The position numbers were made by a program, and so were the translations under genes. Below, in pieces: positions 3,340 through 60,518 of a DNA stretch of 64,000 bases; within the stretch, counting starts at the first letter, position 1, and the number at the start of each line of letters is the position of its first letter. The DNA lies in the NCBI RefSeq assembly GCF_025024155.1, contig NW_026251711.1:372001-436000 (forward strand). Direction: 5' to 3'. The notes under the pieces were generated by a model. The model was given only the letters and a program-made list of their open reading frames with translations, ran no database searches and was not told the origin of the DNA. Origin of the DNA: Gamsiella multidivaricata. Its lineage: Eukaryota; Mortierellomycota; Mortierellomycetes; Mortierellales; Mortierellaceae.

Positions 3340-3655
<316 letters not shown>

Positions 3656-5266: not shown

Positions 5267-5530
5267 CATTCATTCGGATAGTTGGTATTTGGGCCTGCCT
5301 GAACAGCCAATGGCCCGAAGCTATCGTCCGTTGGATTATGGACGAACGCCTCAAAGTCAGAATGATGCTGAAGCGGCGAGAAAGGATGAGCATGGAACAT
5401 CGTGGTGGCTAATTGCACACTTCCCAGTGTTCTCTCCTTTGCATCCGAGAGCCCACTTACTCGTTACACGAGGGCGAGGGAGTAATCTGACTACAAGCAT
5501 GGTTCCGTTTGGCGGATGCTGCAACGATGG
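5267..5530 (+). rRNA. LSU (28S-type) rRNA 3'-terminal fragment, upstream of NLR1
   Basis: Starts with TTCATTCGGATA-GTTGGTATTTG and continues through AGCTATCGTCCGTTGGATTATGG and CGCCTCAAAGTCAGAATG, the conserved block just 3' of the sarcin-ricin loop in fungal LSU rRNA. The sense strand is +. It begins in mid-gene, so it cannot give a functional rRNA. The 3' limit near 5530 is inferred from where a T-rich tail begins. The part of the LSU that should precede it lies on the other side of NLR1 (12709-13123). Confidence 0.75.
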
Positions 5531-6492
5531 TTTTGTGTCTTTGCACTCTTTTCCCCTCTTTCCCACTTTCCCACTTTCCTTTCTTCCCAGATTCTCCCTC
5601 CCTCAATCCATCAGGAACCGCCTCTTATCTTTTTCATCTTTTCTCACTCTTCTGTCTGTCCCTCGCACGTCTCTGCTTTCCCGCTCTTCTGTCTGTCTCT
5701 CATACGTCTCTGTTCAATCTCAATAAGCACAGCCCAGCGTCGACTCATTGGTATCAAAGACACAGTTTATCTGCCAAAGCCCCATCCCAGAATGCACCTG
5801 AACAACCACAGTCGAGTCAAGAGTGTTAGTGCTAGATGTGCAATGGATAGTAATCTTTTCTTTCATGATCATAGGAATCTCTGCTAGAAGTGACGAGGGA
5901 AGCGAATATCACTCCACTCGGCCGCCTTGTTCATATGCAGACCGTCTTAAACAAAGAGTTGGAGTAGAAAACATTGCACAGGGACGGACCATCTCCTCGG
6001 CTGGTTAAAGATCTCAAGGTCTCGAGAAACAAATTCCTGTTGAGGTGAGGCACTGTTTCTTGTCAGTCGATAGTGGCTTATAAGCATGTTATAAGGTTAT
6101 TAACCCTGCATGCTTCACGATGGGCAGTTAGTATCGCTGTTAGGAGGCACGAAGAGGACAAATCTTCAGGGCTACCTCTGCATCCAATCAAAGGAAACAG
6201 GAGTCGAATACACACTTCCGAGGTGGGACCCCATCACATGGCCGAGCAACCACATATGATATAGTTCATGGATATTAATGTTTTGATTTACGATAGCTCA
6301 TTCTGCTGTCTCTACATCTGTAGTATACCAGCCCACGGCGCCTTATTGGTCCCCATTGTGTTACTGAAGTGTCTGTCAAGCATAAGTATGTATACTGGTT
6401 ATTCGCACAGGCATATCAATCGACCCACAGGGTCACTAATATCGCCGCCATCTGCTCTATCATAACAGGAGAAATCCCCTCAGAGAAGCAAC
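5531..6492 (+). other. Upstream region of NLR1, spacer-like
   Basis: The first part is pyrimidine-rich (CCCTCTTTCCCAC-type runs) directly after the rRNA 3' end, as expected of an rDNA spacer. The rest is shared almost unchanged with NLR2 (37527-38480) and NLR3 (54409-55316 region). It probably holds the NLR promoter and 5' UTR. Open frames here are copied in all three paralogs but have no recognisable product. Confidence 0.5.
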
Positions 6493-9400
6493 ATGTTTGC
6501 CAGAAATTTTTCGTCACTGCGAAAGGCTCTCTCACCACAAAAGGAACTGGAACTCACCAACATCTACGTGGAGAATGCACGCAAAACCAAGGATCGGGAA
6601 ATCGCTTTAGTGTTGTGCGACGATGCGGAGGCTGCGTTATCCCGGATGAAAAGAGCAGCGAGAAAGACTTTTACAACTCCCCTGTCAGTCGAGGATCAAA
6701 CCCTGCGCGATGGATTCGCCGGCGTCTGCTTCAAGCATGCCGACCTATTGGAGAGCTTAGGATATAGCGAAATGGCACAGGTCAGCTATAGGAGGGCAGA
6801 AAAGTGGGGGTAAGTGACAGGTACCTGCTCTCTACCTGTTCGTATTAGCCGACTATATCGTACGTCGCACCTAATGTATCTCTCACTTTGTTGACTGTCC
6901 TCTGACTTCATCAGCCATGTGCATCCTACAAAAGATCCAGGTCCTGTAAGTTCCTCTGCCACCGACAGTGCCTGCCGCGACATGGCACGGGTCTCTGAGG
7001 ATATCTTTCCTGATGACATGCGTCAGCCCACCGTCAAGATCGCGCTGCCAGAGGCAGATGAGCGGCTCAGCGATACATCCCAGCTCGCCTACTGCCTTGG
7101 CCTTCTGCAAGTGACGCCGTCACCTGAAGAGGTCTTTGAACCAGCCGCAGGAAATTGGGTGAAATCCACAGAGCAGAATGCAGAGGAGAAGGAGAGACTC
7201 AGGACGCTGGCGACAGATGTGATCCGAGCATTCACTCGCGATGAGCTCAAGGATGCCAAGGCCGTCGCAGAAGTTGTATGCCTGGGCCCGGTTCTTGAAA
7301 AGGAATATTTCCACTCTCTACTAAAGCTGTTTGTCAATGGCGTTGGCAAGTCCAGCCTGCTGGATGTGCAGTCCCTCGAAGGGTTGGCGCAGTTGGTCCA
7401 AAGCGCACCCGAGGGCTACCTCGACTCGGATGACCTAGTCACGATCCTGCGCAACCTCAATACCCGCCTACAAGACACTCACAATCAGTCTCCGGTACAT
7501 ATCTACCAGCTGACACTCGCAGTGTCCAATGTTCTGGATGCCATGGCCAATACCAAGGTCTCAGGCTTAAAGCGTGAAGAGCTGCACGAGCCACTCTCTA
7601 CCTATTTGAATGAGCTGCAAGGCAGCAGCGACCCTTACTTGGTGTACCAGGCAGCCTATGCCTTCCAAGCGCTGCAGTGTGTCCCAGACAACGAATCACC
7701 TTGGCAAGCAACGATGCGGCGCACTGGAATCGTTTTGAAGGGTGTCTCGGGGATAGTTAGTGCCGTAAAAGGTCTGGACGTCAATGGCTTCATCACAGGA
7801 CTCGGACATCTTCAGGAGGGACTAGGGGAGGTGATCCAGGTGGCGAAGATCGGCTATGAAGGTGTGAGCGCACTGGCCGAGAGTGGACAAGGGCTGTTGG
7901 AGTCTCTCAAGGTCGGTCTCAGTTTCAACTGGAAACGTGCCTGGTATACAGCACTACGCGGAACAGACACACTGCTTCGGGATGGTCAACTCGCCAAGTT
8001 CAAGACCTTGGTCTGTGAAGCGCCTTGCCGACGTGACCTGGCCTTTCAACTAGGAGTATGCCAGCGCCTGGGGGATCTTGCCGCCAATCCACTGTGGGAC
8101 ATCGAGTCTCGTCAAGGCGCTGTTGCGTTTCTGGGAGAGATGTACCGAAACGATGCGGTGTGGGGACAGCAAGCCCTTGTCAAGCAATGGATCCTTCACA
8201 TCCTTATGCAGTTGGCTTCGACATTTGGCTCAGCTATGCCAGGTATGTACTATAATGAAGAAGATGCACAAGAGACCATTGTCTTATTGCAAAGGATGGA
8301 GTTCACTACCAGCGAGTACTAATGGCATTTGCCACGGTCTATTTTGACCTGTGCAACACATATATGGTGTAGGTGTCGAACCCCTGCTGCAAGAGCTGGA
8401 ATCGAATGGCGATCAGACAAAAAGGACTTTTTATCAAGAGTGCAGAAAAGAAGACCGGAGGTTACATCCCCTCAAGGTCGCTCCGCCAGCCACCTCGTCC
8501 CCATCACTGCTTGATCGTGTCCAGAACAAGCCCGACGTTGAAGCCGACCTGAGACGATTAAGAAAGCAGCGACTGAAGGAACGAGACGACGCCGTGTACA
8601 TCCCCCCTCAAGCCAAGGCTAACCTGCAAGCGTCCGATGACAACCTGTTTGACTTGACAAAAGAAGTTGAAGGCTTCCTGAACAGTGACCGTAAGGTGAT
8701 GCTCTTGCTGGGTGATTCCGGTGGAGGCAAGTCGACATTTAACCGGCATCTCGAGTGCGACTTGTGGGATGCCTATAAGAAGAGGGAAGGCAGAATCCCG
8801 CTCTTTATCAGCCTGCCTGCAATCGACAAGCCAGAACAGGATCTGATCGCCAAACACCTACGGAAGGCAGAGTTTACCGAACCCCAGATCCGAGAGCTGA
8901 GAGACCACCGCAAATTCATCTTGATTTGTGATGGGTATGATGAGAGCCAGCAGACACACAACCTGTACACGAGCAACGGACTGAATCAGGTGGGAGGATG
9001 GAGCGCTCAGATGATCATTAGCTGCCGCAGCGAGTATCTTGGGCTCGATTATCGGGATCGGTTCCAGCCAGCAAACCACAATCACCAAGCAGAGCCAGTA
9101 TTTCAAGAGGCAGTCATTGCACCATTCTCTATGGATCAAATACAAGAATACATAATGAAATATGTGTCCACGACGAGCCCGCTCTGGCAGGTGGCGGACT
9201 ACTTGAATGCTCTTAATCTGATTCCCAGCCTGCAAGACCTGGTCAAGAACCCGTTTATGTTGACCCTATCCATGGAGGTATTGCCGCGCATGGTGGATCC
9301 GGGACAAGACCTCTCGGCCGTCAGGGTCACTAGAGTCGCATTGTATGACCAGTTTGTGGAACAGTGGCTGGAGCGAGGCAAGAAGCGGCTTGGGAACAAA

Positions 9401-12307
9401 GACTTGAGCCCTCAAGCAAGGGCAAATTTTGAGAAGCTGAACGACGAAGACTTTACTCAGGACGGCATGGATTTTCTCAAGGATTTGGCTAGTGCAATCT
9501 ATAAACATCAGGCAGGTAATCCGGTGGTGGCCTATTCGCGCAAACGAGACAAAGGGACGTGGAAGGAACAGTTTTTCTCCCGAGAAGACGAGAACCAGCT
9601 TCTGCTGGAAGCCTGTCCTCTGACGCGCAGCGGCAATCAGTACCGGTTTATTCATAAATCGCTACTGGAATACTGTTTGGCCCGAGCAGTGTTTGAGCCA
9701 CGAAACGGAGAGAGCGCAAGTCACGCGACCATACTTCAAACTCTGCCGCGTCGAGGGAGCGTTCATTCCATCATGAGCTATGAAAGCCAGGATACTATTG
9801 AGGAACCCATAGCAGCCATTGAACAGGCCGTGCTCGATTCGCCCTTGGCACGGAAACGCTTTGTGGGCGAGCCGTCGATTCTGCACTTTTTAACAGAGCG
9901 TGTCCGACAGGAACCTCTCTTCAAGCAGCAGCTGCTCGCCACGATCGAATGCTCCAAAATCAACAAAGAGGCACGCAAGGCAGCAGCCAATGCGATCACG
10001 ATATTGGTCAGAGCTGGGATCCTGTTTAACGGCGCAGATCTGAAAGGCATCCAGATTCCAGGAGCGGACCTGAGTGGCGGGCAATTCGATTCTGCTCAGC
10101 TGCAAGGGGCAGATTTGAGAAAAGTCAATCTTCGCAATATTTGGCTGCGTCAGGCCAATTTGAGCAACGCACAGATGGCGGGTGTGCAGTTTGGCGAATG
10201 GCCGTACCTCTTAGAAGAAAGCGGGGTGAGATCCTGCGCGTATTCACCAGATGGGAAGTTCTGTGCGGTTGGTCTCAACGACGGCACAATCGGCGTGTAT
10301 GACACTTCGACTTGGGCAAAAGCCCACACCTTGCGCGGCCATACCGGGTCAGTTACGAGCGTGGTGTATTCGCCCAGCGGCCAGCAGATCGCCTCGGGAA
10401 GTCAGGACACGACGGTGCGACTGTGGGATGCGCAAACCGGCGCACCTGGTCTCATCTTAAGCGGCCATACCGACATTGTTACGAGCGCGGTGTATTCACC
10501 CAGCGGCCTGGAGATCGCCTCGAGCAGTTACGATGAGACGGTGCGGCTGTGGGACGCACAAACCAGTGCACCCGGTCTCATCTTAAGCGGCCATACTTCA
10601 TGCGTTACAAGCGTAGTGTATTCTCCTAGCGGCCAGCAGATTGCCTCGGGCAGTTACGACAACACGGTGCGACTGTGGGATGCGCAAACCGGTGCACCCG
10701 GTCTCATCTTAAGCGGCCATGCCTCCCATGTTACGAGTGTGGTGTATTCGCCCAGCGGCCAGCAGATCGCCTCGGGCAGTTATGACTGCACGGTGCAACT
10801 ATGGGATGCGCAGTCTGGTGCGCCCAGTCTCGTCTTAAGCGGCCATACCAACGTTGTCGAAAGCGTGGTGTATTCGCCCAGCGGCCAGCAGATCGCCTCG
10901 GGAAGTCACGACAGGACGGTGCGAATGTGGGATGTGCAAACCGGTGCACCCGGCCTCATCTTAAGCGGCCATACCAACGTTGTTGAGAGCGTGGTGTATT
11001 CGCCCAGTGGCCAGCAGATCGCCTCGGGAAGTCAGGACTACACGGTGCGACTGTGGGACGCGCAAATCGGTACATCCGGTCCCATCTTAAGTGGCCATAC
11101 CAACTACGTTGAGAGCGTGGTATACTCGACCAGCGGTCAGCAGATCGCCTCGGGCAGTTACGACTGGACGGTGCGATTGTGGGATGCGCAAACTGGTGAA
11201 TCCGGTCTCATCTTAAGCGGCCATGCCGGCAATGTTACGAGCGTGGTCTATTCGCCAAGCGGCCATCAAATCGCCTCGGGAAGTTGGGATTGGACGGTGC
11301 GACTGTGGAACGCGCAAACCGGTGCACCCGGTCTCATCTTAAGCGGCCATACCTCCTGCGTTACAAGCGTGGTGTATTCACCCAGTGGTCAGCAAATCGC
11401 CTCGGGCAGTTACGACAACACGGTGCGACTGTGGGATGCGCAAACCGGTGCACCCGGTCCCATCTTAAGCGGCCATACCGACAATGTTACGAGTGTGGTG
11501 TATTCGCCCAGCGGCCAGCAGATCGCTTCAAGCAGTTACGACGGGATGGTGCGACTGTGGGACGCGCAAACTAGTGCGCCCGGACTCATCTTAAGCGGCC
11601 ATACCTCCTGCGTTACAAGCGTGGTGTATTCACCCAGCGGCCAGCAAATCGCCTCGGGTAGTTGGGACAAAACTGTGCGACTGTGGGATACGCAAACCGG
11701 TGTACCCGGTCCCATCTTAAGCGGTCATACCGGCTTAGTTACGAGCGTGGTGTATTCGCCCAGCGGCCAGCAGGTCGCTTCGGGAAGTTGGGACTGGACG
11801 GTGCGGCTGTGGGATGTGAATTCGGGTCAATGTTTGACAGTTGTTCAAGGCTTCCATGGACTAATCGCAAGTATCGCCTGGAACGCTACTCCAAACGGCA
11901 CCTATTTCGCAACCGGCTGTGGCGATAAGTCTGTTCGCGTGTGGCAGGTCATAGAAGAGAAGGATCGCTATCAGGTGCGCCTGCATTGGAGTTCGATGCA
12001 TGACAGACTTACAGTGCCAAATACCTCTATCCAGGACGTGCAAGGCTTAAGCAGGATAAATACGCGTCTATTACAGCAACGCGGCGCTGTGGGCGAGCCG
12101 ATTCCACCTTTGAGCTTCCGCGAGGCAAGCAAAAAGCTCATTAGCATGGCGTCCGTGGCGCATAAACTCAAGGTGCCGTCAAACCACAGTATGATCAATA
12201 CCGTCGCCACGACCGATTCTCTCGCTGTACAGTCAGCAAAGCCAGTCGATTCGGCGACTGTCTTTTTGCTTGCTGGAGACGCGAATGTGGAGCAATTAGG
12301 GGATTAA
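6493..12307 (+). CDS. NLR1: NLR-like STAND NTPase (TPR-like, NACHT, pentapeptide, 14 WD40)
   Basis: Three exons: 6493-6809, 6915-8242 and 8373-12307. Both introns are GT-AG (GTAAGT...CAG; GTATGT...TAG, with TACTAAT at about 8317). Splicing keeps frame and gives 1,859 residues. Residues about 1-105 form a helical TPR-like domain. Residues about 110-640 are helical, ARM-like, with no named effector motif seen. NACHT begins near 655, with Walker A GDSGGGKST at 662-670, Walker B ILICDGYDE around 731-739 and a sensor-type ISCRSEYLG. Pentapeptide A(D/N)L repeats lie at about 1100-1160. Fourteen WD40 units lie at about 1165-1750: twelve near-identical 42-residue units and a degenerate one at each end, enough for two seven-blade propellers. 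A conserved tail follows. Such proteins are cytosolic signalling switches that oligomerise on ligand binding, and fungal relatives act in non-self recognition. This is the only one of the three copies with an uninterrupted frame. Confidence 0.9.
10220..11970 (+). repeat. WD40-coding tandem array of NLR1 (126-bp units)
   Basis: Twelve 126-bp units lie between two degenerate ones. The frame is almost invariant (VVYSPSGQQIASGS, VRLWDAQTGAP, ILSGH). Differences concentrate in two to three residues after SGH (TGS, TDI, TSC, ASH, TNV, TNY, AGN, TDN, TGL) and around the Asp of S-x-D-x-T (QDT, YDE, YDN, YDC, HDR, QDY, YDW, WDW, YDG, WDK). Confidence 0.9.
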
Positions 12308-12708
12308 CAACGGTGCCTTGTCTTTATTTATTGCTAATCTTTTAGCGCAGGGATTGCGCTTTCTTAACACAATATACAGAGCAGTCTTTGTCCATGACAA
12401 GTTCACAAATTAAAAGTGATGGTCAAGAGCACAAACTAAAGCACTCAATGGGTTCGAACAAAGAGCGGGATCGAAAGCGATGAATAATGAAGAGATTGGA
12501 CTAGGGTCACGGAGTCTTGTGGGTCCGCAAATGTTGACCATGGCAGCCCGCTGTCTAAGTAATACGTCCAAGAGAAACATAACTCTCCTGGTTCTAAACG
12601 ATCCCCTCACGGAGAGTGTCGTCCCAATTTCCTTCATCGACCCTGCCCAATATCACCAGTACCACCGCTGCGACCAACACCAGATCTACAACCAACAACG
12701 CACCCCCT
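12308..12708 (+). other. 3' flank of NLR1 shared by all three NLR genes
   Basis: About 400 bp with no convincing gene, homologous to 31326-31733 (NLR2) and 48187-48626 (NLR3). It presumably carries the 3' UTR and poly(A) region. In all three copies it joins LSU rRNA sequence at the same point, (A/C)TACTGA followed by CAGAATTC. Confidence 0.6.
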
Positions 12709-13123
12709 ATACTGAAGCAGAATTCAGTTAGCGTTGGATTTTTCACTCATTAATAAGGAACGTGAGCTGGGCTTAGACCGTCGTGGGACAGTGTTGCTCG
12801 AGGAAATAGTTCTTTTACAGCTGTATGGAGTAAGGAAACTCCCAATCTGAATACTCGAATAATTTGTGTTCCACACTGAATACAAGGGTCTAACGCACAA
12901 ACTACACACACTGTAGCGAGTGGTCAGCACAACGGTCTTCTTGTTCAACTGGAACAAGGAACTAAAGACCGCGCTGGCTTCGACCTTCCTTTTATTCAGG
13001 CACAACCTCAAAACCTTACATCGAATCCTGCGTACTCGCGATGGCTGCTGGCAACAACAGGTTAGGTTTACCCTACTGATGAGATGTTGTTGCAAGAGTA
13101 ACTGAACTTAGTACGAGAGGAAT
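12709..13123 (+). rRNA. LSU rRNA fragment downstream of NLR1, ending after the sarcin-ricin loop, split by an LTR
   Basis: Sense on +. It begins ACTGAAGCAGAATTC and includes GCGTTGGATT, GGAACGTGAGCTGGG and AGACCGTCGTGGGACAG. It is then interrupted at 12792-13056 and resumes with GTTAGGTTTACCCTACTGATG, ending TTAGTACGAGAGGAAT. The last string is the sarcin-ricin loop. The next LSU bases are missing here and are found upstream of NLR1 at 5267. It is degenerate and not a functional rRNA. Confidence 0.85.
12792..13056 (+). mobile_element. Solo-LTR-like insertion (265 bp) in the LSU fragment
   Basis: The insert begins TGTTGC and ends GCAACA, a TG...CA structure with 6-bp inverted ends typical of LTRs. 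It is flanked by a 4-bp direct repeat ACAG (12788-12791 and 13057-13060). The uninterrupted LSU copies at about 48.1 and 55.65 kb carry ACAG once, so this is a real insertion with target duplication. A shortened copy is at the same site beside NLR2. No internal retrotransposon genes are present and the family is unknown. Strand is arbitrary. Confidence 0.7.
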
Positions 13124-14410: not shown

Positions 14411-14411
14411 T

Positions 14412-14502
<91 letters not shown>

Positions 14503-29659: not shown

Positions 29660-31001
29660 GTATAACGTATTGGAATGGGTGTGTCGTGTCATAGGTGATG
29701 TGCGATATGCGCCATTAGCTCGGCTTTAGAGGAGATATCCATGTGCGGGGTAAATTAGTACATTCCACTGGGAATCCTATAAACAGACCTTCCCTCCTTT
29801 CAGGAACAATCATAGATTCAACAGACACGACCCACAGCGTTTCATTTACATGGATAAACGAAGAGAACAGGCTTTTACATGATAGTAAAAATAATGGGAC
29901 GGACCACCTTGGCCACGGCTGTTTGGCAGGGCCTATCGGAAATTACAACGTACTTCAGCCAGACGCGACAAAGACAGGGTCTCGGCTAAAGATCGAGTCC
30001 AGCAGGAGTGAAATTGCCTATTGTGCAATAAAACAGGGTCTTAAACTGTACACCTACCCTGCATCGAACACGATTTTACACGTATCTCTTTCTTGCATAG
30101 AACAGGGTTTTACACGTACCTCTACCCTGCATCAACCAGGATATTTACCCATTCCACATACACCATCTCCGAGGACTGTGGCCGTGCACCCAGGTACTCA
30201 TCAGTGAGCAAACCGCGCTCTCCCCCTATTTTGATTTATTAGGTAGTTTTTCCATTGCAGGTTCCAGTTATACAGGTATGTGGTGTACACTGCCCTGTAC
30301 CGTCTACATCCATGCCCAGGCGAACCACTCGTCTATGGCAGAACCGCTCGTCGATAGCAAGAGTTGGAACCAGTCCATTTCGCTATATTTAACACATTCC
30401 TTCATGGTTGTCAGCATAACATATCAAACCCCCAGATATGGCTCAATAAGGGCCCGTAACAAGACAATTCTGTCAAGGGCTGTTACAAATTGATGGACAG
30501 ACTCAGGGGACGGACCAAGGTGGACTGTAAGACGCTATTAGATGGTACACCACCGCAGACTCGCGGAAAACGTTGATCCCTCTCGACCAGGTCTTGTGCG
30601 TCAGAGAACAACGGAAATGTGTGTGTGTGGCACCAAGGACCTTCAGGAATCAGATGCAAGACTTTGTCGAGTCCAAGGCTTGGTCGGGTAAATCGGATCA
30701 TCACTTCCCGTGCTGTGCATCACTGGCGTCTTTTCTCCACGAGTTTAGTCTATCCCCAGGCACATGTACGACAACGGTGCGTTCGCTCACGTATCTAAGG
30801 AGCTTTACTTTGTCGCCCATATGTTATAGTCGAAAATTCCAGTAGATTTAGAGAACCAGACACATTTTCTCATAACGTGCATGCAAACCCTCTTCCACTT
30901 CCCGATCTCTCTCATTCTCGTCTGTTGCTGCTGACCGTTGCGGACAGTGATTGTTGGCGAAGCAAGGTGCGGAGATGGCACGAGCAGCTCAGGGGCGTTC
31001 A
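29660..31001 (-). repeat. KEP upstream repeat module, copy 3 (inverted)
   Basis: Homologous to 13124-14410 in inverted orientation and abuts the rRNA junction at 31001/31002. It includes a local tandem repeat of ACAGGGTTTTACACGTACCTC-type units around 30050-30150. Confidence 0.75.
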
Positions 31002-31325
31002 TTCCTCTCGTACTAAGTTCAGTTACCATTGCAACAGCATTTCATCAGTAGGGTAAGCCTAACCTGTTGTTGCCAGCAGCCACAGCCAGTACGCAGGATT
31101 CGATGTAAGGTTTTGAGGTTGTGCCTGAATAAAAGGAGGGTCGAAGCCAGCACGGTCTTTTGTTCCTTGTTCCAGTTGAACAAGAAGACCGTTGTGCTTC
31201 TTACTCCTTACAGCTGTAAAAGAACTATCTCCTCGAGCAACACTATCTCACGACGGTCTAAACCCAGCTCAAGTTCTCTATTAGTGGGTAAACAATCTAA
31301 CGCTTACTGAATTCTGATTCAGTAT
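31002..31325 (-). rRNA. LSU rRNA fragment downstream of NLR2, with LTR remnant
   Basis: Sense on -. Same content and same two breakpoints as 12709-13123 beside NLR1: it runs from ACTGAATCAGAATTC to TTAGTACGAGAGGAAT. It is split by the same LTR-like insert, here shortened. Confidence 0.83.
31068..31242 (-). mobile_element. Truncated solo-LTR-like insertion (175 bp)
   Basis: Same TGTTGC...GCAACA ends and same insertion point as 12792-13056, but about 90 bp shorter through an internal deletion. The shared site shows that the LTR inserted before the two NLR units separated. Confidence 0.68.
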
Positions 31326-31733
31326 GGCGAGTGCATTGTTGGCTGTAGACCTGGTGCTGACCGTAGCGGCGGTACTGGTGACATTGGCTAGGGTCGGTGA
31401 AGGAAGTTGGGACGATACTCTCTGTGAGGGGATCGATTAGGATCGGGAGAGTTATGTTTCTCTTGCGCGTATTACTTAAGACAGCAGGCTGCCATGGTCA
31501 ACATTTATGGACCCACAAGACTCCGTGACCCTAGTCCGATCTCTTCATTGTTCATCACTTTCGCTCCCGCTCTTTTGGCTTTTCGAACCCATTGAGTGCT
31601 TTAGTCTGTGCTCTTGGCCATCACTTTTAATTTATGAACTTGTCATGGACAAAGACTGCTCTGTATATTGTGTTAAGAAAGCGCAATCCCTGCGCTAAAA
31701 GATTAGCAATAAATAAAAGTCAAGGCACCGTTG
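31326..31733 (-). other. 3' flank of NLR2
   Basis: Homologous to 12308-12708. No gene seen. Confidence 0.55.
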
Positions 31734-34700
31734 CTAATCTTTTTTTTGCTCCATCTTCACGTTTCCAGCAGGCAAAAAGACATCCGCCCAGTCGACTGGC
31801 TTTGCTGACTGTACAGCGAGAGAATTGGTCGTGGCGACGATATCGATCACACTGTGGTTTGACGGCACCTTGAGTTTATGCGCCACGGACGCCATGCTAA
31901 TGAGCTTTTTGCTTGCCTCGCGGAAGCCCAAAGGCGGAATCGGCTTGCCCACAGCGCCGCGTTGCTCTAATAAACGCGCATTTATCCTGCTTAAGCCTTG
32001 CACGTTCTGGATAGAGGTATTTGACACTGTAAGTCTGTCATGCATCGAAGTCCAATGCAGGCGCACCTGATAGCGATCCTCCTCTTCTATGACCCGCCAC
32101 ATGCGAACGGACTTATCGCGACAGCCGGTTACGAAATAGGTGCCGTTTGGAGTAGCGCTCCAGGCGATGCTTGTGACTGATCCATGAAAATCTTCAACAA
32201 CTGCCAAACATTGACCCGAATTCACATCCCACAGCCGCACCGTCTTGTCCTTACTGGCCGATGCGATCTGCTGGCCGCTAGGCGAATACACCACGCTCGT
32301 AACATGGTCGGTATGGCCACTTAAGATAAGGCCGGGTGCACCGGTTTGCGTATCCCACAGTCGCACCATGTTGTCCCAACTTCCCGAGGCGATCTGCTGG
32401 CCGCTGGGCGAATACACTACGCTCGTAACATCGCGGGTATGGCCGCTTAAGGTAGAACCGGGTGCACCGGTTTGTGCGTCCCACAGCCGCACCGTCCAGT
32501 CGCTACTGCCCGAGGCGATCTGCTGGCCACTGGGCGAATACACCACGCTCATAACCCAGCTGGTATGGCCGCTTAAGATGAGACCGGGTGCACCGGTTTG
32601 CGCATCCCACAGTCGCACCGTGTTGTCCCAGCTTCCCGAGGCGATGTGCTGGCCACTGGGCGAATACACCACGCTCGTAACATAGTTGGTATGGCCGCTT
32701 AAGATGGGACCGGGTGCACCGGTTTGCGCGTTCCACAGCCGCACCGTGTTGTCGTTACTGCCCGAGGCGATCTGGTGGCCGCTGAGTGAATACATCACAC
32801 TCGTAACATCGGAGGTATGGCCACTTAAGATGGGACCGGGTGCACCAGTTTGCGCATCCCACAGTTGTACTGTCCTGTCGTAACTGCCCGAGGCAATCTG
32901 CTGGCCGCTGGGCGAACACACCACGCTCGTAACATCGCGGATATGGCCGCTTAAGATGGGACCGGTTGCACCGGTTTGCGCATCCCACTGTCGCACCGTC
33001 TTGTCCCAACTTCCTGATGCGAGTTGCTGGCCACTGGGCGAATACACCACGCTCATAAGCATGGAGGTATGGCCGCTTAAGATGAGACCAGGCGCACCGG
33101 TCTGCACATCCCACAGTCGCACCGTCTTGTCGTCACTTCCCGAGGCGATCTGGTGGCCGTTGGGAGAATACGCCACGCTCGTAACTGACTTAGTATGACC
33201 GCTTAAGATGAGACCGGGTGCACCGGTTTGCGCATCCCACAGTCTCACCGTCTCGTCGTTACTGCCCGAGGCAATCTGCTGGCCGCTGGGCGAATACACC
33301 ACACTCGTAACATCGAAAGTATGACCGCTTAAGATGAGTCCGGATGCACCAGTTTGCGCATCCCACAGTCGCACCGTCCTGTCGTAACTGCCCGAGGCAA
33401 TCTGCTGACCGCTGGGCGAATACGCCACGCTCGTAATAGAGTTGATATGGCCGCTTAAGATGAGACCAGGTGCACCGGTTTGTGCGTCCCACAGCCGCAC
33501 CATGTTGTCGTGACTGCCCGAGGCAATCTGCTGACCACTGGGAGAATACACCACGCTCGTAACAAAGGAGGTATGGCCACATAAGATGGGACCAGGTGCA
33601 CTGGTTTGCGCGTCCCACAGTCGTACCGTCTTGTCATCACTTCCCGAGGCGATCTGCTGGCCGCTGGGTGAATACACCACGCTCGCAACTGACTCGGTAT
33701 GGCCGCGCAAGGTGTGGGCTTTTGCCCAAATCGAAATGTCATACACGCTGATCGTGCCATCGTTGAGACCTACTGCACAGAACTTCCCATCTGGAGAATA
33801 CGCGCAGGAAATCGCCATGCTATCTTCTAAGAGGTACGGCCATTCGCCAAACTGCGCACCCGCCATCTGTGCATTACTCAGATTGGCCTGACGCAGCCAA
33901 ATATTGCGAAGGTTGACTTTTCTCAAATCTGCCCCTTGCAGCTGAGCAGAATCGAATTGGCCTCCACTCAGGTCCGCTCCTGGAATCTGGATGCCTTTCA
34001 GATCTGCGCCGTTAAACAGGATCCTAGCTCTGACCAATATCGTGATCGCATTGGCTGCTGCCTTGCGTGCCTCTTTGTCGGTTTTGGAGCATTCGATCGT
34101 GGCGAGCAGTTGCTGCTTGAAGAGAGGTTCTTGTTGGACACGCTCTGCTAAAAAGTGCAGAATCGACGGCTCGCCCACAAAGCGTTTCCATGCCAAGGGC
34201 GAATTAAGCACGGCCTGTTCAATGGCTGCTATGGGTTCCTCTACAGCACCCTGGCTTTCATAGCTCATGACGGAATGGACGCTCCCTCGACGCGGCAGAA
34301 CTTGAGGTAAGGCCGCACGACTCGCGCTCTCCCCGTCTCGCGGCTCAAACACCGCTCGGGCCAAACAGTATTCCAGTAGCGACTTATGGATAAACCGGTA
34401 CTGATTACCACTGCGCGTCAGAGGACATGCCTCACGCAAGAGTTGCTGCTTTTCGTCCTCCCGGCTAAAGAAATCCTCTTTCCATGTCCTTTGATCACGA
34501 AAGGGCGAGTACTCGACCACCGGATTGCCTGCTTGCTCTTTATACATCGCTACCGCTAGCGCTTTCAAAAAGGCAACTCCATTCTGTGCAAAACCATCGT
34601 CAGACAAGCTTTCGAACACCTTTTTTCTTGATAGCTCAAGTCCTTCTTCTCAACAAGACGTTTCTTGCCTCGCTCCAACCATTGTTCCATGAACTGGTCA

Positions 34701-37526
34701 TACAATGCGACTCTCGTCACCCGGACGGCTGAGAGGTCTTGTCCTGGATCCACCATACGCGGCAGTACCTCCAAGGACAGCGTCAGCATAAAAGGATTCT
34801 TGACCAGGTCTTGCAGGCTGGGAATCAGATTAAGGGTCTTCAAGTAGTCCGCTACCTGCCAGACCGGTCTCGCCGTGGACACATATTTCCTTATGTATTC
34901 TTGGATTTGATCCATAGAGAATGGGCAATGACTGCCTCTTGAAATGCTGGTTCTGCTTGGTGATTGCGATCTGCTGGCTGGAACCGATCCCGATAATCGA
35001 GCCCAAGATACTCGCTGCGGCAGCTAATGATCATCTGAGCGCTCCATCCTCCCACCTGATTCAGTCCGTTGCTCGTGTACAGGTTGTGGTCTGCTGGCTC
35101 TCATCATACCCATCACAAATCAAGATGAATTTGCGGTGGTCTTTCAGCTCTCGGATCTGGGGTCGGTAAACTCTGCCTTCCGTAGATGTTTGGCGATCAG
35201 ATCCTGTCTGGCTTGTCGATTGCAGGCAAGCTGATAAAGAGCGGAATCCTGCCTCCTTTTTCTTATAGGCATCCCACAAGTCGCACTCGAGATGCCGGTT
35301 AAAGGTCGACTTGCCTCCACCCGAATCGCCTAGCAGGAGCATCACCTTATGGTCACTGCTCAGGAAGCCTTCAACTTCTTTTGTCAAGTCGAACAGGTTG
35401 TCATCGGACGCTTGCAGGTTAGCCTTGGCTTGAGGGGGATGTACACGGCTTCGCCTCGTTCCTTCAATCGTTGCTTTCTCAGTCGTCTCAGGTCGGCTTC
35501 AACATCAGGCTTGTTCTGGACAAGATCAAGCAATGATGAGACGCGACGGTGGTAAGGCGACCTGCAGCGGATGTAAGCTTCGATTTCCTTTCGGCAATCC
35601 TGATAAAGAATCCTTTTCGTCTCATCGCCATTCGATTCCAGCTCTTGCAACAAGATTCGACACCTACACCATGTATCGCATAGACCACAATAGAATATAG
35701 TACAGCTATTAGTACTGCTAGGTCGTGAACTCCATACTTCATATAAGCCACAGCCTCTCACATATCCGTTCATCATACATACCTGGCATATCGAGCCAAA
35801 TGTGAAGCCAACTGCATAAGGATGTGGAGGATCCATTGCTTGACGAGGCTTGCTGGCCCCACCCGCATCGTTTCGGTACATCTCCCCAGGAACGCAACAG
35901 CGCCTTGGCGAGACTCGATGTCCCACAGTGGATTGGCGGCAAGATCCCCCAGCGCTGGCATACTCCTAGTTGAAAGGCTAGATCACGCCGGCAAGGCGCT
36001 TCACAGACCAGGGTCTTGAACTTGGCGAGTTGACCATCCCGAAGCAGCGTATCTGTCCCGCGCAGTGCTGTATACCAGGCACGTTTCTTGTTGAAACTGA
36101 GGCCAGCTTTGAGAGATTCCAACAGTCCTTGTCCACTCTCGGCCAGTGCGCTCACACCTTCATAACCGATTTTCGCCACCTGGATCACCTCTCCCAGTCC
36201 CTCCTGAAGATGCCTCAGTCCTGCGATGAAGCCGTCGACGTCCAGACCTTTTACGGCGCTAACTAGCCCCGAGACGCCCTTCAAAACGATTCCTGTGCGC
36301 CGCATCGTTGCTTGCCAAGGTGATTCGTTGTCTGGGACACACTGCAGCGCTTGGAAGGCATAGGCGGCCTGATACACCAGGTAAGGATCGCTGCTGCCTT
36401 GAAGTCCACTCAAATAGGCAGAGAGTGGCTCATGCAGCTCTACACGCTTTAAGCCTGAGACCTTGGTATCAGCCATGGCATCCAGGACATTGGACACCAC
36501 GAGTGTCAGCTGGTAGATATGAGCCGGAGACTGATTGTGAGTGTCTTGTAGGCGGGTGTTGAGGATACGTAAGATCGCAACTAGGTCATCAGCGTCGAGG
36601 TAACCCGGGGAGGCGTCTTGGATCAGTTGCACCAGTCCCTTGAGAGAATGGACATCCAGCAAGCTGGACTGTTCGATGCCATTGACAAAGAGCATGAGCA
36701 AATGTTGAAAATCATCCTTCTCGAGAACTGGGCCCAGGCATACGACTTCTGTGACGGCCTTGGCATCCTTGAGCTCATCGCGAGTGAATGCTCGGATCAC
36801 ATCTGTCGCCAGCGTCCTGAGTCTCTCCTTCTCCTCTGCATTCCGCTCTGTGGATTTCACCCAATTTCCTGCGGCTGGTTCAAAGACCTCTTCAGGTGAC
36901 GGCGTCACTTGCAGAAGGCCAAGGCAGTAGGCGAGCTGGGATGTATCGCTGAGTCGCTCATCTGCCTCTGGCAGCGCGATCTTGACGGTGGGCTGACGCA
37001 TGTCATCAGGAAAGATATCCTCAGAGACCCGTGCCATGTCGCGGCAGGCACTGTCGGTGGCAGAGGAACTTACAGGACCTGGATCTTTTGTAGGATGCAC
37101 ATGGCTGATGAAGTCAGAGGACAGCCAACAAAGTGAGAGATACATTAGGTGCGACGTACGATATAGTCGGCTAATACGAACAGATAGAGAGCAGGTACCT
37201 GTCACTTACCCCCACTTTTCTGCCCTCCTATAGCTGACCTGTGCCATTTCGCTATATCCTAAGCTCTCCAATAGGTCGGCATGCTTGAAGCAGACGCCGG
37301 CGAATCCATCGCGCAGGGCTTGATCCTCGACTGACAGGGGAGTTGTAAAAGTCTTTCTCGCTGCTCTTTTCATCCGGGATAACGCAGCCTCCGCATCGTC
37401 GCACAACACTAAAGCGATTTCCCGATCCTTGGTTTTGCGTGCATTCTCCACGTAGATGTTGGTGAGTTCCAGTTCCTTTTGTGGTGAGAGAGCCTTTCGC
37501 AGTGACGAAAAATTTCTGGCAAACAT
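31734..37526 (-). pseudogene. NLR2: NLR-like STAND gene with many single-base deletions
   Basis: Same exon plan as NLR1: 37526-37210, 37104-35783 and 35663-31734, with conserved splice sites. Exon 1 and most of exon 2 are almost identical to NLR3. Between about 35.96 and 34.6 kb there are many one-base losses relative to NLR3 and NLR1. Six of them lie in the last 200 bp of exon 2 (1,322 against 1,328 bp). Others fall before and inside the NACHT region and at 34620 in a T run. The rest of exon 3 (34619-31734) is intact: end of NACHT, pentapeptide repeats, 14 WD40 units (12 plus 2) and the tail, the same length as in NLR1. As written it cannot make full-length protein. Almost all differences are single-base deletions packed in 1.3 kb of otherwise near-identical sequence, so consensus error of a long-read assembly is as likely as real decay. 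Confidence 0.8.
32075..33815 (-). repeat. WD40-coding tandem array of NLR2
   Basis: Fourteen units in one open frame. Variable triplets after SGH: TES, TSF, INS, TFD, TKS, TSM, IRD, TSD, TNY, TSW, TRD, TDH. Variable Asp-flanking residues: DDK, HDN, YDR, NDE, DDK, WDK, YDR, NDN, WDN, SDW, WDN, KDK. Most differ from NLR1 and NLR3 at the same position. Confidence 0.88.
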
Positions 37527-38480
37527 GTTGCTTCTCTGAGGGGATTTCTCCTGTTATGATAGAGCAGATGGCGGCGATATTAGTGACCCTGTGGGTCGAT
37601 TGATATGCCTGTGCGAATAACCAGTATACATACTTATGCCTAACAGACACCTCAATAACACAATGGGGACCAATAAGGCGCCGTGGGCTGGTATACTACA
37701 GATGTAGAGACAGCAGAATGAGCTATCGTAAATCAAAACATTAATATCCATGAACTATATCATATGTGGTTGCTCGGCCATGTGATGGGGTCCCACCTCG
37801 GAAGTGTGTATTCGACTCCTGTTTCCTTTGATTGGATGCAGAGGTAGCCCTGAAGATTTGTCCTCTTCGTGCCTCCTAACAGCGATACTAACTGCCCATC
37901 GTGAAGCATGCAGGGTTAATAACCTTATAACATGCTTATAAGCCACTATCGACTGACAAGAAACAGTGCCTCACCTCAACAGGAATTTGTTTCTCGAGAT
38001 CTTTAACCAGCCGAGGAGATGGTCCGTCCCTGTGCAATGTTTTCTACTCCAACTCTTTGTTTAAGACGGTCTGCACACGAACAAGGCGGCCGAGTGGAGT
38101 GATATTCGCTTCCCTCGTCACTTCTAGCAGAGATTCCTATGATCATGAAAGAAAAGATTACTATCCATTGCACATCTAGCACTAACACTCTTGACTCGAC
38201 TGTGGTTGTTCAGGTGCATTCTGGGATGGGGCTTTGGCAGATAAACTGTGTCTTTGATACCAATGAGTCGACGCTGGGCTGTGCTTATTGAGATTGAACA
38301 GAGACGTATGAGAGACAGACAGAAGAGCGGGAAAGCAGAGACGTGCGAGGGACAGACAGAAGAGTGAGAAAAGATGAAAAAGATAAGAGGCGGTTCCTGA
38401 TGGATTGAGGGAGGGAGAATCTGGGAAGAAAGGAAAGTGGGAAAGTAGGAAAGAGGGGAAAAGAGTGCAAAGACACAAAA
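37527..38480 (-). other. Upstream region of NLR2, spacer-like
   Basis: Nearly identical to 5531-6492 in inverted orientation. Purine-rich on + (pyrimidine-rich on the sense strand) next to the rRNA fragment. No independent gene. Confidence 0.5.
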
Positions 38481-38744
38481 CCATCGTTGCAGCATCCGCC
38501 AAACGGAACCATGCTTGTAGTCAGATTACTCCCTCGCCCTCGTGTAACGAGTAAGTGGGCTCTCGGATGCAAAGGAGAGAACACTGGGAAGTGTGCAATT
38601 AGCCACCACGATGTTCCATGCTCATCCTTTCCCGCCGCTTCAGCATCATTCTGACTTTGAGGCGTTCGTCCATAATCCAACGGACGATAGCTTCGGGCCA
38701 TTGGCTGTTCAGGCAGGCCCAAATACCAACTATCCGAATGAATG
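38481..38744 (-). rRNA. LSU rRNA 3'-terminal fragment, upstream of NLR2
   Basis: Inverted, nearly identical copy of 5267-5530. It starts on - at CATTCATTCGGATAG and joins KEP-D flank (TGCAC) at 38744/38745, exactly as in arm 1. Confidence 0.75.
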
Positions 38745-40290: not shown

Positions 40291-41471
40291 GACTGTCTTG
40301 TCTACGATTGTTTACAGGGTCTATCATACTTCAGCCAGACGCGCGACAAAGCCAGGGTCTCGACCGATGATCGGGTCCAGCAGGAGTGGGATTGCCTATT
40401 GTACAATAAAGCAGGGTCTTAATCTGTACCTCCACCCTGCATCGAACAGGGTTTTACACGTACCTCTGCCCTACATCGGCCAGGACATTTATCCGTTCCA
40501 CATACATCATCTCATCAGCGAGTAAACCGAGCTCCCTTCCTATTTTGATTTATTAGGCAGTTTTTCCATTGTAGGTTCCAGTTATACAGCTATGTGGTGT
40601 ACACCGTCCTGTACCGTCTACGTTCATGTCTAGGCGGACCACTCGTCTATGGCATATGGCAGAACCTCTCGCCGATGGCAAGAGTTGGGAGCAGTCCATT
40701 TCGCTATATTTAACACATTTCTTCATGGTTGTCAGCATAACACATCGAACCCCCAGAGATGGTTTAATAAAGGCTGCAACAGTCCTTGACAGAGTTGGCT
40801 TGTTACGAGATTGATAGAGAGACTCAGGCGATAGACCAGGGTGAACTGTAAGACGCTATTGGATCGTACTCCATCACCGACTCACGGAAGACGTTAACCT
40901 CTCTCGGCCTGGCCTTGTGCATCACGGAACGAAAGAAACGAGCATGTGTGTGGCACCAAGGATCTTCAGGTCGCAATGGACGGCTAACGAGTGCATGCAC
41001 ACAGAGAATATGGAGCAGCCGGCGGTAAATCGACAGCGCGCGATACACGGGAGGCATCCATCAGGAATCGTCTCCTAGACTCAGTCTCGTGCTAGACATG
41101 CATCCCTAACGGCTTTTCTCCACGAGTTTAGGCTATTCTCACAAAAGAGATGGATCTGTTTAGGCATCTCAACTGCTTTATATCGTCGCTCATACGTTAT
41201 GGGCCCAATGCTGGGAAGTTTAGAGAACCAGACACTTCTTCGTCGTAATGTACGAATGCATACCCTCTTCCATTTCACAGCCCCATTTATTCCTATCTGT
41301 TGCTGCTGTTCGTGGATAGTGATCATTGGCAAAGCAAGGTGTGGAGGTGCCATGAGTAACTCAGAGACGTTCGTGCAGGACGAGGAAGGAGCGCAAGTGG
41401 ATGGTGACAAGAGTGGTGTGAGCGAAAAAAGCAGTGGTGGAGCCAATCGTCTCCTCTGCAAGCGAGAGCAA
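40291..41471 (-). repeat. KEP upstream repeat module, copy 4, with an uninterrupted target site
   Basis: Inverted copy of the module. At 41372/41373 it runs straight from TGCAC into GAACG (read on -), joining KEP 3'-flank-like sequence to the module. In arms 1 and 2 the rRNA-NLR unit interrupts exactly this point, so this is an empty site. Confidence 0.7.
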
Positions 41472-46980: not shown

Positions 46981-47948
46981 AAGGCGGAATGAAGGCATGA
47001 GATGAGATGAGGGAACGGGGAGCTAGAACTAGACATGTAGTGTAAACAAACAAACAAACAAACAAAAAAAGAGAGGAGGACAAGCGAGAGAGATTAGGAG
47101 GGGGGAGACAACGAGGGAAGAGAAAGTGGAGGGAGAGAGAATATCAAAAAAGACTATCGTGGGAACACGCTCCTGGCTTTACTCCACTCTCTTTTCTTCC
47201 AGACATTCGCCTTGCATCTTTTCCTTTTGTTCTTTTGTTCTTTATTTTTTCATCCCACTCGTAGCTCGTCCTTTTTACATTCTATACTTCACCATCAACT
47301 CTAGGACACAAAAGATATCAAGCACAGCACACAATGGCATTCCGATCCCGTACATCTCCCTACTCCTTGCTCCTCGCCCTCCTCGCCCTCCCGACCCGAA
47401 AGCGCACCGCTCCACAGGACATCGCCTCTGCCCCTGTCTCAACATCACCATCAACAAATCTCCGCCTACAGAACCGCCACCGCCATACGAAAGAGCCCAC
47501 GGAATCGGTGCCAAGGAAAAAAGAACGCGGTGGTGAGGAGAAATCCGTTCCTGATCCAGAACCTCGAAGGGGGCGGACATGATGCGACACATCGGATTTG
47601 GTGCGAGCATTGGGAGCCGTGTCTCAACCTGTCGTGGTGGAGAGACGGAAGAAGAGGCGGGAGATCAAGGCGAGGAAGGCCTAGGAAGCAGGGACGATGT
47701 TGTGCGCGGAGGCTGCGTACATATAGGATGCGTAATGCCTACTGTTGATCTTGAGCGTATATATGAATGAAAAACTAAATTGTATCACCAAGTTTTCCTG
47801 CCGTTACTACAAAGAAGGATGCCCAACGACCCCCTCTTCTCACTTTGTCCAAAAGACGAAGTAATATATATATGAGCCATTTCATATCTTCAAACGTCTT
47901 CCATGTCCTGGACTATATTGTGGCACACAACGCTTCTTGTGGGATATG
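46981..47948. other. Mostly unrecognised; possible small gene at 47334
   Basis: It has an ACAAACAAAC run at about 47045-47065. A frame at 47334-47582 (+) starts in good context (CACAATGGC) after a T-rich leader. It gives 82 residues with a short hydrophobic start (SLLLALLAL) and a highly charged remainder. There is no homology I recognise, and coding is doubtful. Confidence 0.3.
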
Positions 47949-48186
47949 ACTTTGAGGCGCTCAGCCATAATTCAATGGATGGCAGCCTCGGGCCATTGCC
48001 TGCTCAGGCAGGCCCAAATACCAATTATCTGTATGAACGGTTCCTCTCGTACTAAGTTCAATTACTATTGCAACAACACTTCATCAATAAGGTAAACCTA
48101 ACCTGTCCCACGACGGTCTAAACCGAGCTCACGTTCCCTATTAATGGATGAACAACCCAACGCTTGCTGAATTCTGACTCAGTATG
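47949..48186 (-). rRNA. LSU rRNA 3' fragment downstream of NLR3
   Basis: Sense on -. It runs without interruption from ACTGAGTCAGAATTC through AGACCGTCGTGGGACAGGTTAGG, the sarcin-ricin loop AGTACGAGAGGAACCG and on to AGATAATTGGTATTTGGG. It has no LTR and is not permuted, unlike the fragments beside NLR1 and NLR2. It decays toward 47.95 kb. Confidence 0.82.
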
Positions 48187-48626
48187 GCGAGTGCGTTATT
48201 GGCTGTAGATCTGGTGTTGGTCGCATCGGCGGAGCTGGCGATATTGGCCAGGGTCGGTGAGGAAGTTGGGACGATACTCTCCGCGAAAGGATTGTTTAGA
48301 ATCGAGAAAGTTATGTTTCTCTTGCGCATATTACTTAAGACAGTAGGCTGCCATGGCCATGGTCAACGTTTACGGGCACACAATACACCATGAGCTTAGT
48401 TTGATCTCTTCATTGTTCATCGCTTTCTCCCGCTCTTTGGTTTTTCTAATCCATTGAGTGCTTTAGTTTGTGCTCTTGACCACCACTTTTTAATTTGTAA
48501 ACTTGTCATTGACAAAGATTGCTTTGTATATTGTGTTCATAAAGCGCAATCCTTACGCTACAAGATTGGCAATGAGTAAAAGCCAAAGCACCGTTGCTAA
48601 TCTTCTGTTTGTATCACCTTCACCTT
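48187..48626 (-). other. 3' flank of NLR3
   Basis: Homologous to the 3' flanks of NLR1 and NLR2. No gene. Confidence 0.55.
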
Positions 48627-54408: not shown

Positions 54409-55316
54409 GTTGCTTCTCTGAGGGGATTTCTCCTGTTATGATAGAGCAGATGGCGGCGATATTAGTGACCCTGTGGGTCGATTGATATGCCTGTGCGAAT
54501 AACCAGTATACATACTTATGCCTAACAGACACCTCAATAACACAATGGGGACCAATAAGGCGCCGTGGGCTGGTATACTACAGATGTAGAGACAGCAGAA
54601 TGAGCTATCGTAAATCAAAACATTAATATCCATGAACTATATCATATGTGGTTGCTCGGCCATGTGATGGGGTCCCACCTCGGAAGTGTGTATTCGACTC
54701 CTGTTTCCTTTGATTGGATGCAGAGGTAGCCCTGAAGATTTGTCCTCTTCGTGCCTCCTAACAGCGATACTAACTGCCCATCGTGAAGCATGCAGGGTTA
54801 ATAACCTTATAACATGCTTATAAGCCACTATCGACTGACAAGAAACAGTGCCTCACCTCAACAGGAATTTGTTTCTCGAGACCTTGAGATCTTTAACCAG
54901 CCGAGGAGATGGTCCGTCCCTGTGCAATGTTTTCTACTCCAACTCTTTGTTTAAGACGGTCTGCACACGAACAAGGCGGCCGAGTGGAGTGATATTCGCT
55001 TCCCCCGTCACTTCTAGCAGAGATTCCTGTGTGCATGAAAGAAGGGATTATTATCCATTGCACATGAATGGCTGTTTTGTTCTCCTGACCTTGGTCATTC
55101 TAGGATTAGCACTCTTGACCCCACTGTGGCTGTCCAGGCACATTCAGGGGTGAGGATTTGGCAGATAAACTGCTTTTGTTACCAATGAGTCGCCGCTGAG
55201 CTGTGCTTATTGAGATCGGTGCGAGAGACAGACAGAAGAACGAGAAAAGATGAGAGGGAAATCTGGGAAGAAGGGAAAGTGGGAAAGTAGAAAAAAAAAA
55301 TACGAAAACACATATT
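54409..55316 (-). other. Upstream region of NLR3, spacer-like
   Basis: Nearly identical to the NLR2 upstream region up to about 55030. Beyond that it is diverged but still alignable through the pyrimidine-rich part (on -) to the rRNA fragment. Confidence 0.5.
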
Positions 55317-55786
55317 CAACGTTGCAGCTTCCACCAAATGGAGCCATATTTGGAGTCAGATTACTCCCTAGCCCTTGTGTAACGTGTGTGGGCTCTCGGA
55401 CGCAAAGGAGAGGAGAACAGTACTGAGAATTGTGCAATTAGCCACCACAATGTTCCTTGCTCATCCTTTCTCACTGCTTCAGCATCATTCTGACTGAGTC
55501 GTTCAGCCATAATCCAACAGATGATAGCTTTCGGCCATTACCTGCTCAGGCAGGCCCAAATACCAATTATCCGAATGAACGGTTCCTCTCGTATTAAGAT
55601 CAATCACTATTGCAACAACGTTTCATCAGTAGGGCAAACCTAACCTGTCTCACGACGGTCTAAACCCAGTTCACGTTCCCTATTAGTGGGTGAACAATCC
55701 AACGCTTACTGAATTCTGCTTCAGTAGGATAGGAAGAGCCGACATCGAAGGGCCAAGAAGCAACGTCGCCATGAACGCTTGGCTGC
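55317..55786 (-). rRNA. Long LSU rRNA 3' fragment upstream of NLR3
   Basis: The longest and only continuous fragment, sense on -. It opens with CAGCCAAGCGTTCATGGCGA, then TTCGATGTCGGCTCTTCCTA, CTGAAGCAGAATTC, AGACCGTCGTGAGACAGG and the sarcin-ricin loop region (AATACGAGAGGAACCG). It then goes on to TTCATTCGGATAATTGG and the 3' end. Order and spacing match fungal LSU rRNA. Many substitutions and a change in the loop (AATACGAG for AGTACGAG) show it is a relic. Confidence 0.87.
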
Positions 55787-60203: not shown

Positions 60204-60518
60204 GTGCAGATCGAGGGAGGTGTACAAGTGAGCGTGCTATGGATGGGGACAAGAGGGGTGTGAGCGAGAAAAGTGATGGAGGAGCCGATCATCTCCTCTG
60301 TAAACGAGGATGATATGAGTAGAAAGACCCCATTGGCCGTGCATCGTTCAGGTTCAACGCGGCTGCTCTTATTTTTTAAGCTATTACTTATTTCTGACGC
60401 GATGCACATCGTAGCGCACAGCGGACAATACTTCAGGGTATCATTTTTATATTCTTCATATATTGTATATTCACCAACCACTACCTCTACGTTCTGTCTG
60501 TCATCTGTGATATTGCAT
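60204..60518 (-). other. KEP-F 3' flank
   Basis: Homologous to the 3' flanks of KEP-A and KEP-D. No gene. Confidence 0.55.

Follow-up and report, generated by a model that had tools for sequence, protein, structure and literature searches.

Duplication through circular DNA is already known in principle from wine yeasts and humans. In Region B of wine yeasts, a 17-kb Zygosaccharomyces bailii segment, four junctions share 2-3 bases and the insertion sites are little altered, for which a circle and nonhomologous end joining were invoked; homologous recombination within its tandem copies has been proposed to form the circle anew (Galeote et al. 2011, PMC3053389). In human circle-mediated duplications the same diagnostic as used here was applied, namely an altered segment order that is explained by a circle being cut and reintegrated (Takahashi and Innan 2020, PMC7188851). 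Among fungal receptors, the Podospora HNWD proteins het-R and het-E possess highly similar WD repeats, like the receptor considered below, and diversify by repeat rearrangement, with no such movement reported in the available text of that study (PMC2873952). Term searches of PMC1805685 and PMC2873952 gave no support for a movement of Podospora receptors along with small transposons.

Here we analyse a 64,000-nucleotide stretch of Gamsiella multidivaricata contig NW_026251711.1 (the window), in which a receptor gene unit bounded by LSU rRNA pieces interrupts a sequence designated KEP (Table 1). This organism is a soil fungus related to Mortierella. According to the initial annotation, the left end of copy 1 lies just after the sarcin-ricin loop of the LSU and the right end in that same loop region, and base-by-base alignment of the junctions and KEP sites bears this out, the right end carrying the LSU part that precedes the loop and the two LSU ends being adjacent in rRNA order. 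At the left junction KEP sequence ending in TTCTGCAC runs to 5266 and LSU sequence starts with CATTCATTCGG at 5267; at the right junction LSU sequence ending in GTACGAGAGGAAT runs to 13123 and KEP resumes with GAACGCC at 13124. Joined end to end, the unit reads GAGAGGAAT followed by CATTCATTC, as against GAGAGGAAC followed by CGTTCATTC in the LSU reference (the sequence from L014, used for numbering throughout); the two are equally long and differ by 2 bases at the seam, so that the LSU order is restored but for these bases, as had been claimed. The opening of the unit lies between LSU positions 218 and 219, with BLAST alignments cutting both sides at LSU 217 (the left piece matching LSU 217-315 at 5265-5363). 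The right LSU arm is split by a separate 265-bp insertion resembling a solo LTR and bordered by the 4-bp duplication ACAG; subtraction of this insert and one duplication leaves 7588 bp. What had been called LSU rRNA ends are indeed LSU sequence, but the LSU sequence in the window consists of pieces of a dispersed 3'-end fragment family and not of a whole rRNA gene.

Table 1. Features of the window (positions counted from its first letter)
Feature	Position	Strand	Remark
Copy 1, permuted LSU-receptor-LSU unit within KEP sequence	5267..13123	+	
Left LSU piece, reference ~219-315, 3' of sarcin-ricin loop	5267..5363	+	BLAST
Segment X, following LSU 315; 5' of receptor in copy 1	5364..5429	+	
Receptor ORF 1, 467 aa, ARM_5	6919..8322	+	
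Receptor ORF 2, 1318 aa, NACHT and 14 WD40 stretches	8351..12307	+	
Right LSU piece, reference 73-155	12709..12791	+	
Solo-LTR-like insert TGTTGC...GGCAACA	12792..13056	+	duplication ACAG at 12788-12791 and 13057-13060
Right LSU piece, reference 152-218, ends in sarcin-ricin loop	13057..13123	+	
Copy 2, same insertion as copy 1	31001..38744	-	
Second uninterrupted KEP site, CTGCAC^GAACGTC	41366..41374	-	position approximate (~41370)
Copy 3 3' LSU handle, reference 72-311	47947..48186	-	
Copy 3 of receptor unit, between two LSU direct repeats	48187..55486	-	
Copy 3 5' LSU, reference 14-315	55487..55786	-	
Uninterrupted KEP site, CTGCAC^AACGCC	~60203..60204	-	

The continuity of KEP in two other copies in the window was likewise confirmed. 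Measured against these uninterrupted copies, neither copy 1 nor copy 2 has a target-site duplication, and about 1 bp is shared at the KEP breakpoint, without extended homology at this site. Both junctions of copy 1 recur in copy 2, and in both the ends are adjacent in the parent sequence, as in the permuted copies left by circle-mediated duplication. The two are 84-95% alike per 500-bp bin outside one tract of 99%; they are old copies, which counts against the circle reading favoured below. Copy 3 lies between two LSU direct repeats, the 5' one of which falls inside the sole Rfam LSU match of the window at the gathering threshold (55464-55832).

The NACHT domain encoded by ORF 2 (PF05729, E=4.4e-9, score 36.8 against a cut-off of 26.7) is accompanied by 14 stretches of WD40 (PF00400), whose repeats are highly similar units of 126 bp; the ARM_5 domain of ORF 1 matches Mortierellaceae proteins. 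The predicted ARM_5-NACHT-WD40 receptor thereby combines a NACHT with a repeat domain, as fungal NLRs do. Among the Pfam matches listed for the unit's large ORFs (the best 25 of 45 in the case of ORF 2), the families are ARM_5, NACHT and WD40 or beta-propeller families, with no transposase or recombinase among them. At least 27 close copies of the receptor family are present in the genome. On C159, an LSU piece lies about 4.7 kb downstream of a divergent receptor, with no LSU72 junction in the 801 bases read.

Across the genome the unit is composed of the receptor, a 244-bp LSU handle (LSU 72-315) and segment X, spanning 7.6 kb. The receptor-LSU72 junction is kept in 20 and the reciprocal LSU315-X junction in 14 of the 25 stretches examined, not all of which are independent since they overlap in the C145 and C76 arrays. 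On C145 three receptors stand in tandem with the handle between them, at a period of 7823 bp in L042; shorter arrays are found on C76, where the handle is followed by an LTR-like insert, and on C36, where the upstream unit is partial. Several single units are embedded in longer LSU fragments and have LSU 72-315 as a handle on either side. The outer ends of the units vary, being LSU 218, X ~55-73, or longer LSU on one or both sides, and we therefore rejected an LTR-like composite element with constant bounding direct repeats.

Placed on one map, the opening points differ: copies 1 and 2 are open at LSU 218/219, and the units on C144 and C154 near X55-73, with segment X placed after the LSU at their 3' ends. 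In the C144 unit X comes after LSU315 and extends to position 65 in the alignment (~73 by eye), where unrelated sequence takes over (L050), and the 5' end starts near X66 with ~33 bp inverted there (L049). The C154 unit (L036) ends at X55 and starts at ~X65, as placed on two references whose X lengths differ. As these units appear to have been opened near another point, copies 1 and 2 are circularly permuted relative to them. Left ends near X66 also recur on C145 and in L044, L045 and L048 (one common 5' context), and the basic unit may accordingly be linear, with one of its ends at this point. The second opening point would then be the end of a linear unit, and clear permutation may be confined to copies 1 and 2, that is to one event. 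L037 was not counted as a third opening, its 5' start in X lying at ~27 by eye and at 67 by the aligner.

The LSU fragments have a nearly common 5' start and sit at the ends of a gene unit; rRNA pseudogenes are also present in genomes of filamentous ascomycetes (PMC5555474). One LSU locus occurs in receptor-bearing and receptor-free versions: the match to L020 is 90.4% (left) and 92.2% (right) for L039, and 88.7% and 86.0%, respectively, for L040. The 3' junction of L039 is not canonical, being without the receptor end and LSU 72-285, and such pairs fit excision as much as integration. The 5' flanks of L029 and L030 are unrelated, each having a single match, to itself; that of the C154 unit has partial matches (best at C154:51 kb), none of which extends to the insertion point. 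No target-site duplication longer than 7 bases was found at ten receptor-free LSU fragments. Trees of LSU pieces, built from 31 sufficiently long rows for LSU 72-315 and 14 for 316-560, show a partial intermixing of handles with receptor-free fragments; the two handles of one unit are well-supported sisters in L030 only (99/91), and hence single-crossover integration is neither proved nor excluded by the tree. At LSU 305, receptor-free fragments have T in 8/10 and C in 1/10 (missing 1/10), 5' handles A in 7/8 (missing in one, W3), inner handles A in 4/4, and 3' handles A in 6/15 and T in 4/15 (missing 5/15). At LSU 161, T is found in nine of the ten receptor-free fragments (one missing), G in 5/8 and T in 1/8 of the 5' handles (2/8 missing), and G in 8/15, T in 3/15 and A in 1/15 of the 3' handles (3/15 missing); each of the four inner handles has a different base (A, C, T and G), and the site is hence not uniform. 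Taken together these bases speak against the receptor-free fragments being mainly scars of excision, in an informal comparison by counts of copies that are not independent.

We consider a circle-type duplication, with LSU fragments serving as recombination handles and end-joining producing copies 1 and 2, the probable explanation (roughly 0.72). The 7.6-kb unit would once have existed head-to-tail, an extrachromosomal circle being the simplest such form. If the LSU handles beside a receptor recombined, such a circle would be released and an LSU fragment left behind; if the circle then recombined with a different LSU fragment, the unit would be inserted between handles; and a circle opened at some other point could be joined into a break by end-joining. 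Copies 1 and 2 would stem from one event of this last kind, with the opening at LSU 218/219 and the insertion into KEP later duplicated. We count in favour of the circle the meeting of the ends without net loss and the lack of a KEP target-site duplication, the reciprocal junctions, tandem arrays and second opening, and the receptor-bearing/receptor-free pair along with LSU fragments that have unrelated flanks. The opened circle or LSU-NLR tandem unit envisaged in the initial annotation is supported as probable by the three arrays, the handle-flanked units and the C144 and C154 ends, a circle and an excised array monomer being indistinguishable at the level of sequence.

Two breaks at the same LSU position flanking one receptor could give the same product from C145-like arrays or loci like copy 3, the excised linear unit being joined into KEP; this is unlikely, as both cuts would have to hit one position, a further, nearly matching pair of cuts near X66 would be needed for C144 and C154, and no nuclease is among the Pfam families listed for the two ORFs (ORF 2, best 25 of 45). 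Still less likely is that the observed arrays arose by unequal crossing-over and that precisely one period was carried to KEP by replication-based copying: the conversion-like 99% tract between copies 1 and 2 would suit such copying, but start and stop would have to fall on the same LSU base by chance, and two random ends in the 244-bp handle alone meet within 1 bp in only ~1.2% of cases. A fixed-end transposon could account for the recurrence of left ends near X66 in unrelated contexts, but it is very improbable given that copies 1 and 2 end at LSU 218/219 and not at X66, that KEP has no target-site duplication, and that the domains listed for the unit (for ORF 2 from the same 25 of 45 matches) are those of the receptor. 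A DNA transposon or Starship was rejected for copies 1 and 2, which lack the combination of constant ends and target-site duplication.

The circle-type duplication favoured here resembles Region B in its circularly permuted copies and in sharing little or no sequence at the insertion, whereas Region B is foreign DNA that was acquired, has a replication origin that was tested and exists in recent copies (PMC3053389), and the present unit belongs to a receptor family, has old copies and uses an rRNA fragment as its repeat handle. The human cases comprise three candidates of ~20-130 kb, with no such repeat handle mentioned in the available text (PMC7188851). The assertion that this mode of movement is not known for any fungal NLR was not contradicted by the literature searched, in which neither such an NLR nor such an rRNA handle was found, but the principle itself had been published (PMC3053389, PMC7188851). 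More tentatively, the receptor-LSU unit might be a transposase-free mobile gene, a circle that exits and re-enters the genome through ordinary recombination at dispersed rRNA fragments, with occasional end-joining elsewhere, and that seeded the at least 27 copies of the immune-type receptor on different contigs. This bears on the expansion and scatter of fungal NLR repertoires, which are not fully understood. If true, unit-length circles carrying a known junction are predicted, no transposon would be needed for receptors to vary in copy number and position, with rRNA debris as landing sites, and ribosomal pseudo-fragments would gain a role as recombination handles.

Base-level inspection placed the ends of copy 1, a receptor (NLR) unit, exactly where the initial annotation had put them: KEP, a label for the repeated sequence around copies 1 and 2, runs up to one side of the unit and resumes on the other, with LSU rRNA sequence directly inside both boundaries. 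Joined, the two ends read GAGAGGAAT/CATTCATTC (the slash marks the junction), as against GAGAGGAAC/CGTTCATTC in the LSU reference; the lengths are equal and two bases differ, in agreement with the near-normal LSU order claimed earlier. On a 573-base reference taken from locus L014, the opening point of copy 1 lies between bases 218 and 219, identity as LSU being based on an Rfam match in the window and alignment to it. GTACGAGAGGAA is the sarcin-ricin loop. As sequence, the unit with permuted LSU ends is real and well supported.

Features of the window (coordinates in nucleotides)
Feature	Position	Strand	Remark
Copy 1	5267-13123	+	KEP ...TGCAC to 5266, GAACG... from 13124
Copy 2	31001-38744	-	
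Copy 3	48187-55486	-	
Uninterrupted KEP sites	~60203/60204; ~41370		continuous at the insertion place
Tract shared by copies 1 and 2	about 5000-7000		~99% identity, 2 kb, abrupt end
Solo-LTR-like insert	12792-13056		265 bp, 4-bp duplication
WD40 arrays	10330-11816; 32100-33790; 48960-50650		126-bp units
Rfam LSU match	55464-55832		LSU 3'-end fragment
Short tandem repeats	3211-3675; 14305-14571		6/12 bp, adjoining KEP sequence

The KEP flanks are indeed continuous in two other copies in the window, as had been proposed, and relative to these neither loss nor duplication was seen at the insertion place, bar one G by which the two uninterrupted copies themselves differ. All seven genome matches to KEP lie on contig C104. 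Both junctions of copy 1 are also present in copy 2, and because two copies carry identical junctions an assembly error appears less likely. Outside their near-identical left tract, which likely reflects recent gene conversion, copies 1 and 2 are 84-95% identical per 500-bp bin, and this difference suggests an old duplication whose left part was converted later.

Across the genome the recurrent order is LSU to 315, segment X (the piece 3' of LSU 315), receptor and LSU from 72, so that a 244-base handle (LSU 72-315) stands on both sides. Among 25 stretches, in which overlapping stretches of contigs C145 and C76 enter more than once, the receptor/LSU72 junction is present in 20 (absent from L033, L039, L047, L048 and the 5' piece of contig C144, which ends short of that place) and the LSU315/X junction in 14 (absent from L032-L034, L037, L038, L044-L048 and the same C144 piece). 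C145 carries three receptors in tandem with LSU 72-315 in between, C36 has one receptor's end followed by the handle and a second receptor, and in C76 an LTR-like insert lies 3' of the handle and the next receptor begins at 187. Copy 2 holds a partly deleted copy of the 265-bp solo-LTR-like insert, and L034, L038 and L045 have relatives of this insert after the handle.

In W3 (a stretch of the window), L029, L030, L035, L039 and L040 the outer LSU sequence extends past the handle, at one end of the unit or at both. W3, L039 and L040 have hundreds of bases of 5' context in common with the receptor-free loci L011 and L020, and L035 merely 75; the 3' side of the former three also matches L020. 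L039 lacks the receptor 3' end and LSU 72-285, and W3 lacks LSU beyond 311. L029 and L030 each have a 5' flank for which a genome search gave no match elsewhere, as against the contexts of W3, L039 and L040, and we infer that at least three LSU contexts house the unit.

A second opening point is seen elsewhere. At one end of the unit on C144, X continues from the handle as far as 65 by alignment (~73 as judged by eye), after which the sequence is unrelated; the opposite end starts near X66, with ~33 bases of that place inverted. The unit on contig C154 ends at X55 and ~X65, measured on references differing in X length. In copies 1 and 2, X is internal and adjoins the receptor, with the outer ends in LSU; as read from these junctions, both are circularly permuted relative to C144 and C154. 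It is this permutation, to a greater degree than the LSU ends by themselves, that argues for the unit having once existed head to tail.

A circle released or inserted by recombination between handles, and in the case of copies 1 and 2 broken and then end-joined, would explain arrangement, permutation and both copies through one intermediate; the earlier reading, a circle or LSU-NLR array unit opened in LSU, is backed by the C145 array and the permutation. Linear excision would need the coincidence of two equal cuts, and copying that of exactly one period. Several contexts show a left end near X66, so the unit may be a linear element that ends at this place. These recurrent ends constitute the weakest point of the circle model, and such an element would reduce the clear permutation to one event, common to copies 1 and 2.

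The unit encodes ARM_5 (PF23948), NACHT (PF05729) and WD40 repeats, a content that fits the name NLR. Among the best 120 of 843 protein matches, the top scores belong to named proteins from Dissophora globulifera (79% over 94% of the query length) and from Gamsiella multidivaricata (90% over 78%), which marks the genome as that of a member of the Mortierellaceae. The receptor gene's 5' part has at least 48 genome matches, of which at least 27 reach 79% identity. The WD40 units are mostly ~80-88% identical, within and between copies. L044, L045, L046 and L048 have a common 5' flank (84-87% identity) unlike that of other receptor loci, which may be the original promoter side; in L044, L045 and L048 the different flank joins the receptor at ~X66.

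The LSU region of copy 3 has at least 46 matches in the genome (40 of 91 candidates scored). Ten receptor-free fragments (L011, L014, L016-L022, L027), with ends as cut from BLAST matches, start at reference bases 1-8 in seven cases, at 14 in L011 and L020 and at 35 in L027; six extend at least as far as 561, close to the LSU 3' terminus, and L016, L017, L021 and L027 stop before 561. No clear target-site duplication was found at the ten. LSU 3'-end fragments form a dispersed family (L014, L016-L022, the window match and other loci) with a near-common 5' start, ~TAACTGGC.

The same signature served as evidence for wine-yeast region B (PMC3053389) and for duplications in humans (PMC7188851). 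Consistent with the earlier remark that no described fungal NLR moves so, the literature searched, with its coverage of few subscription papers, yielded none with circular DNA or such movement among the papers listed. The event would belong to a known kind, circle-type duplication, with a fungal NLR as the part duplicated and a handle derived from rRNA.
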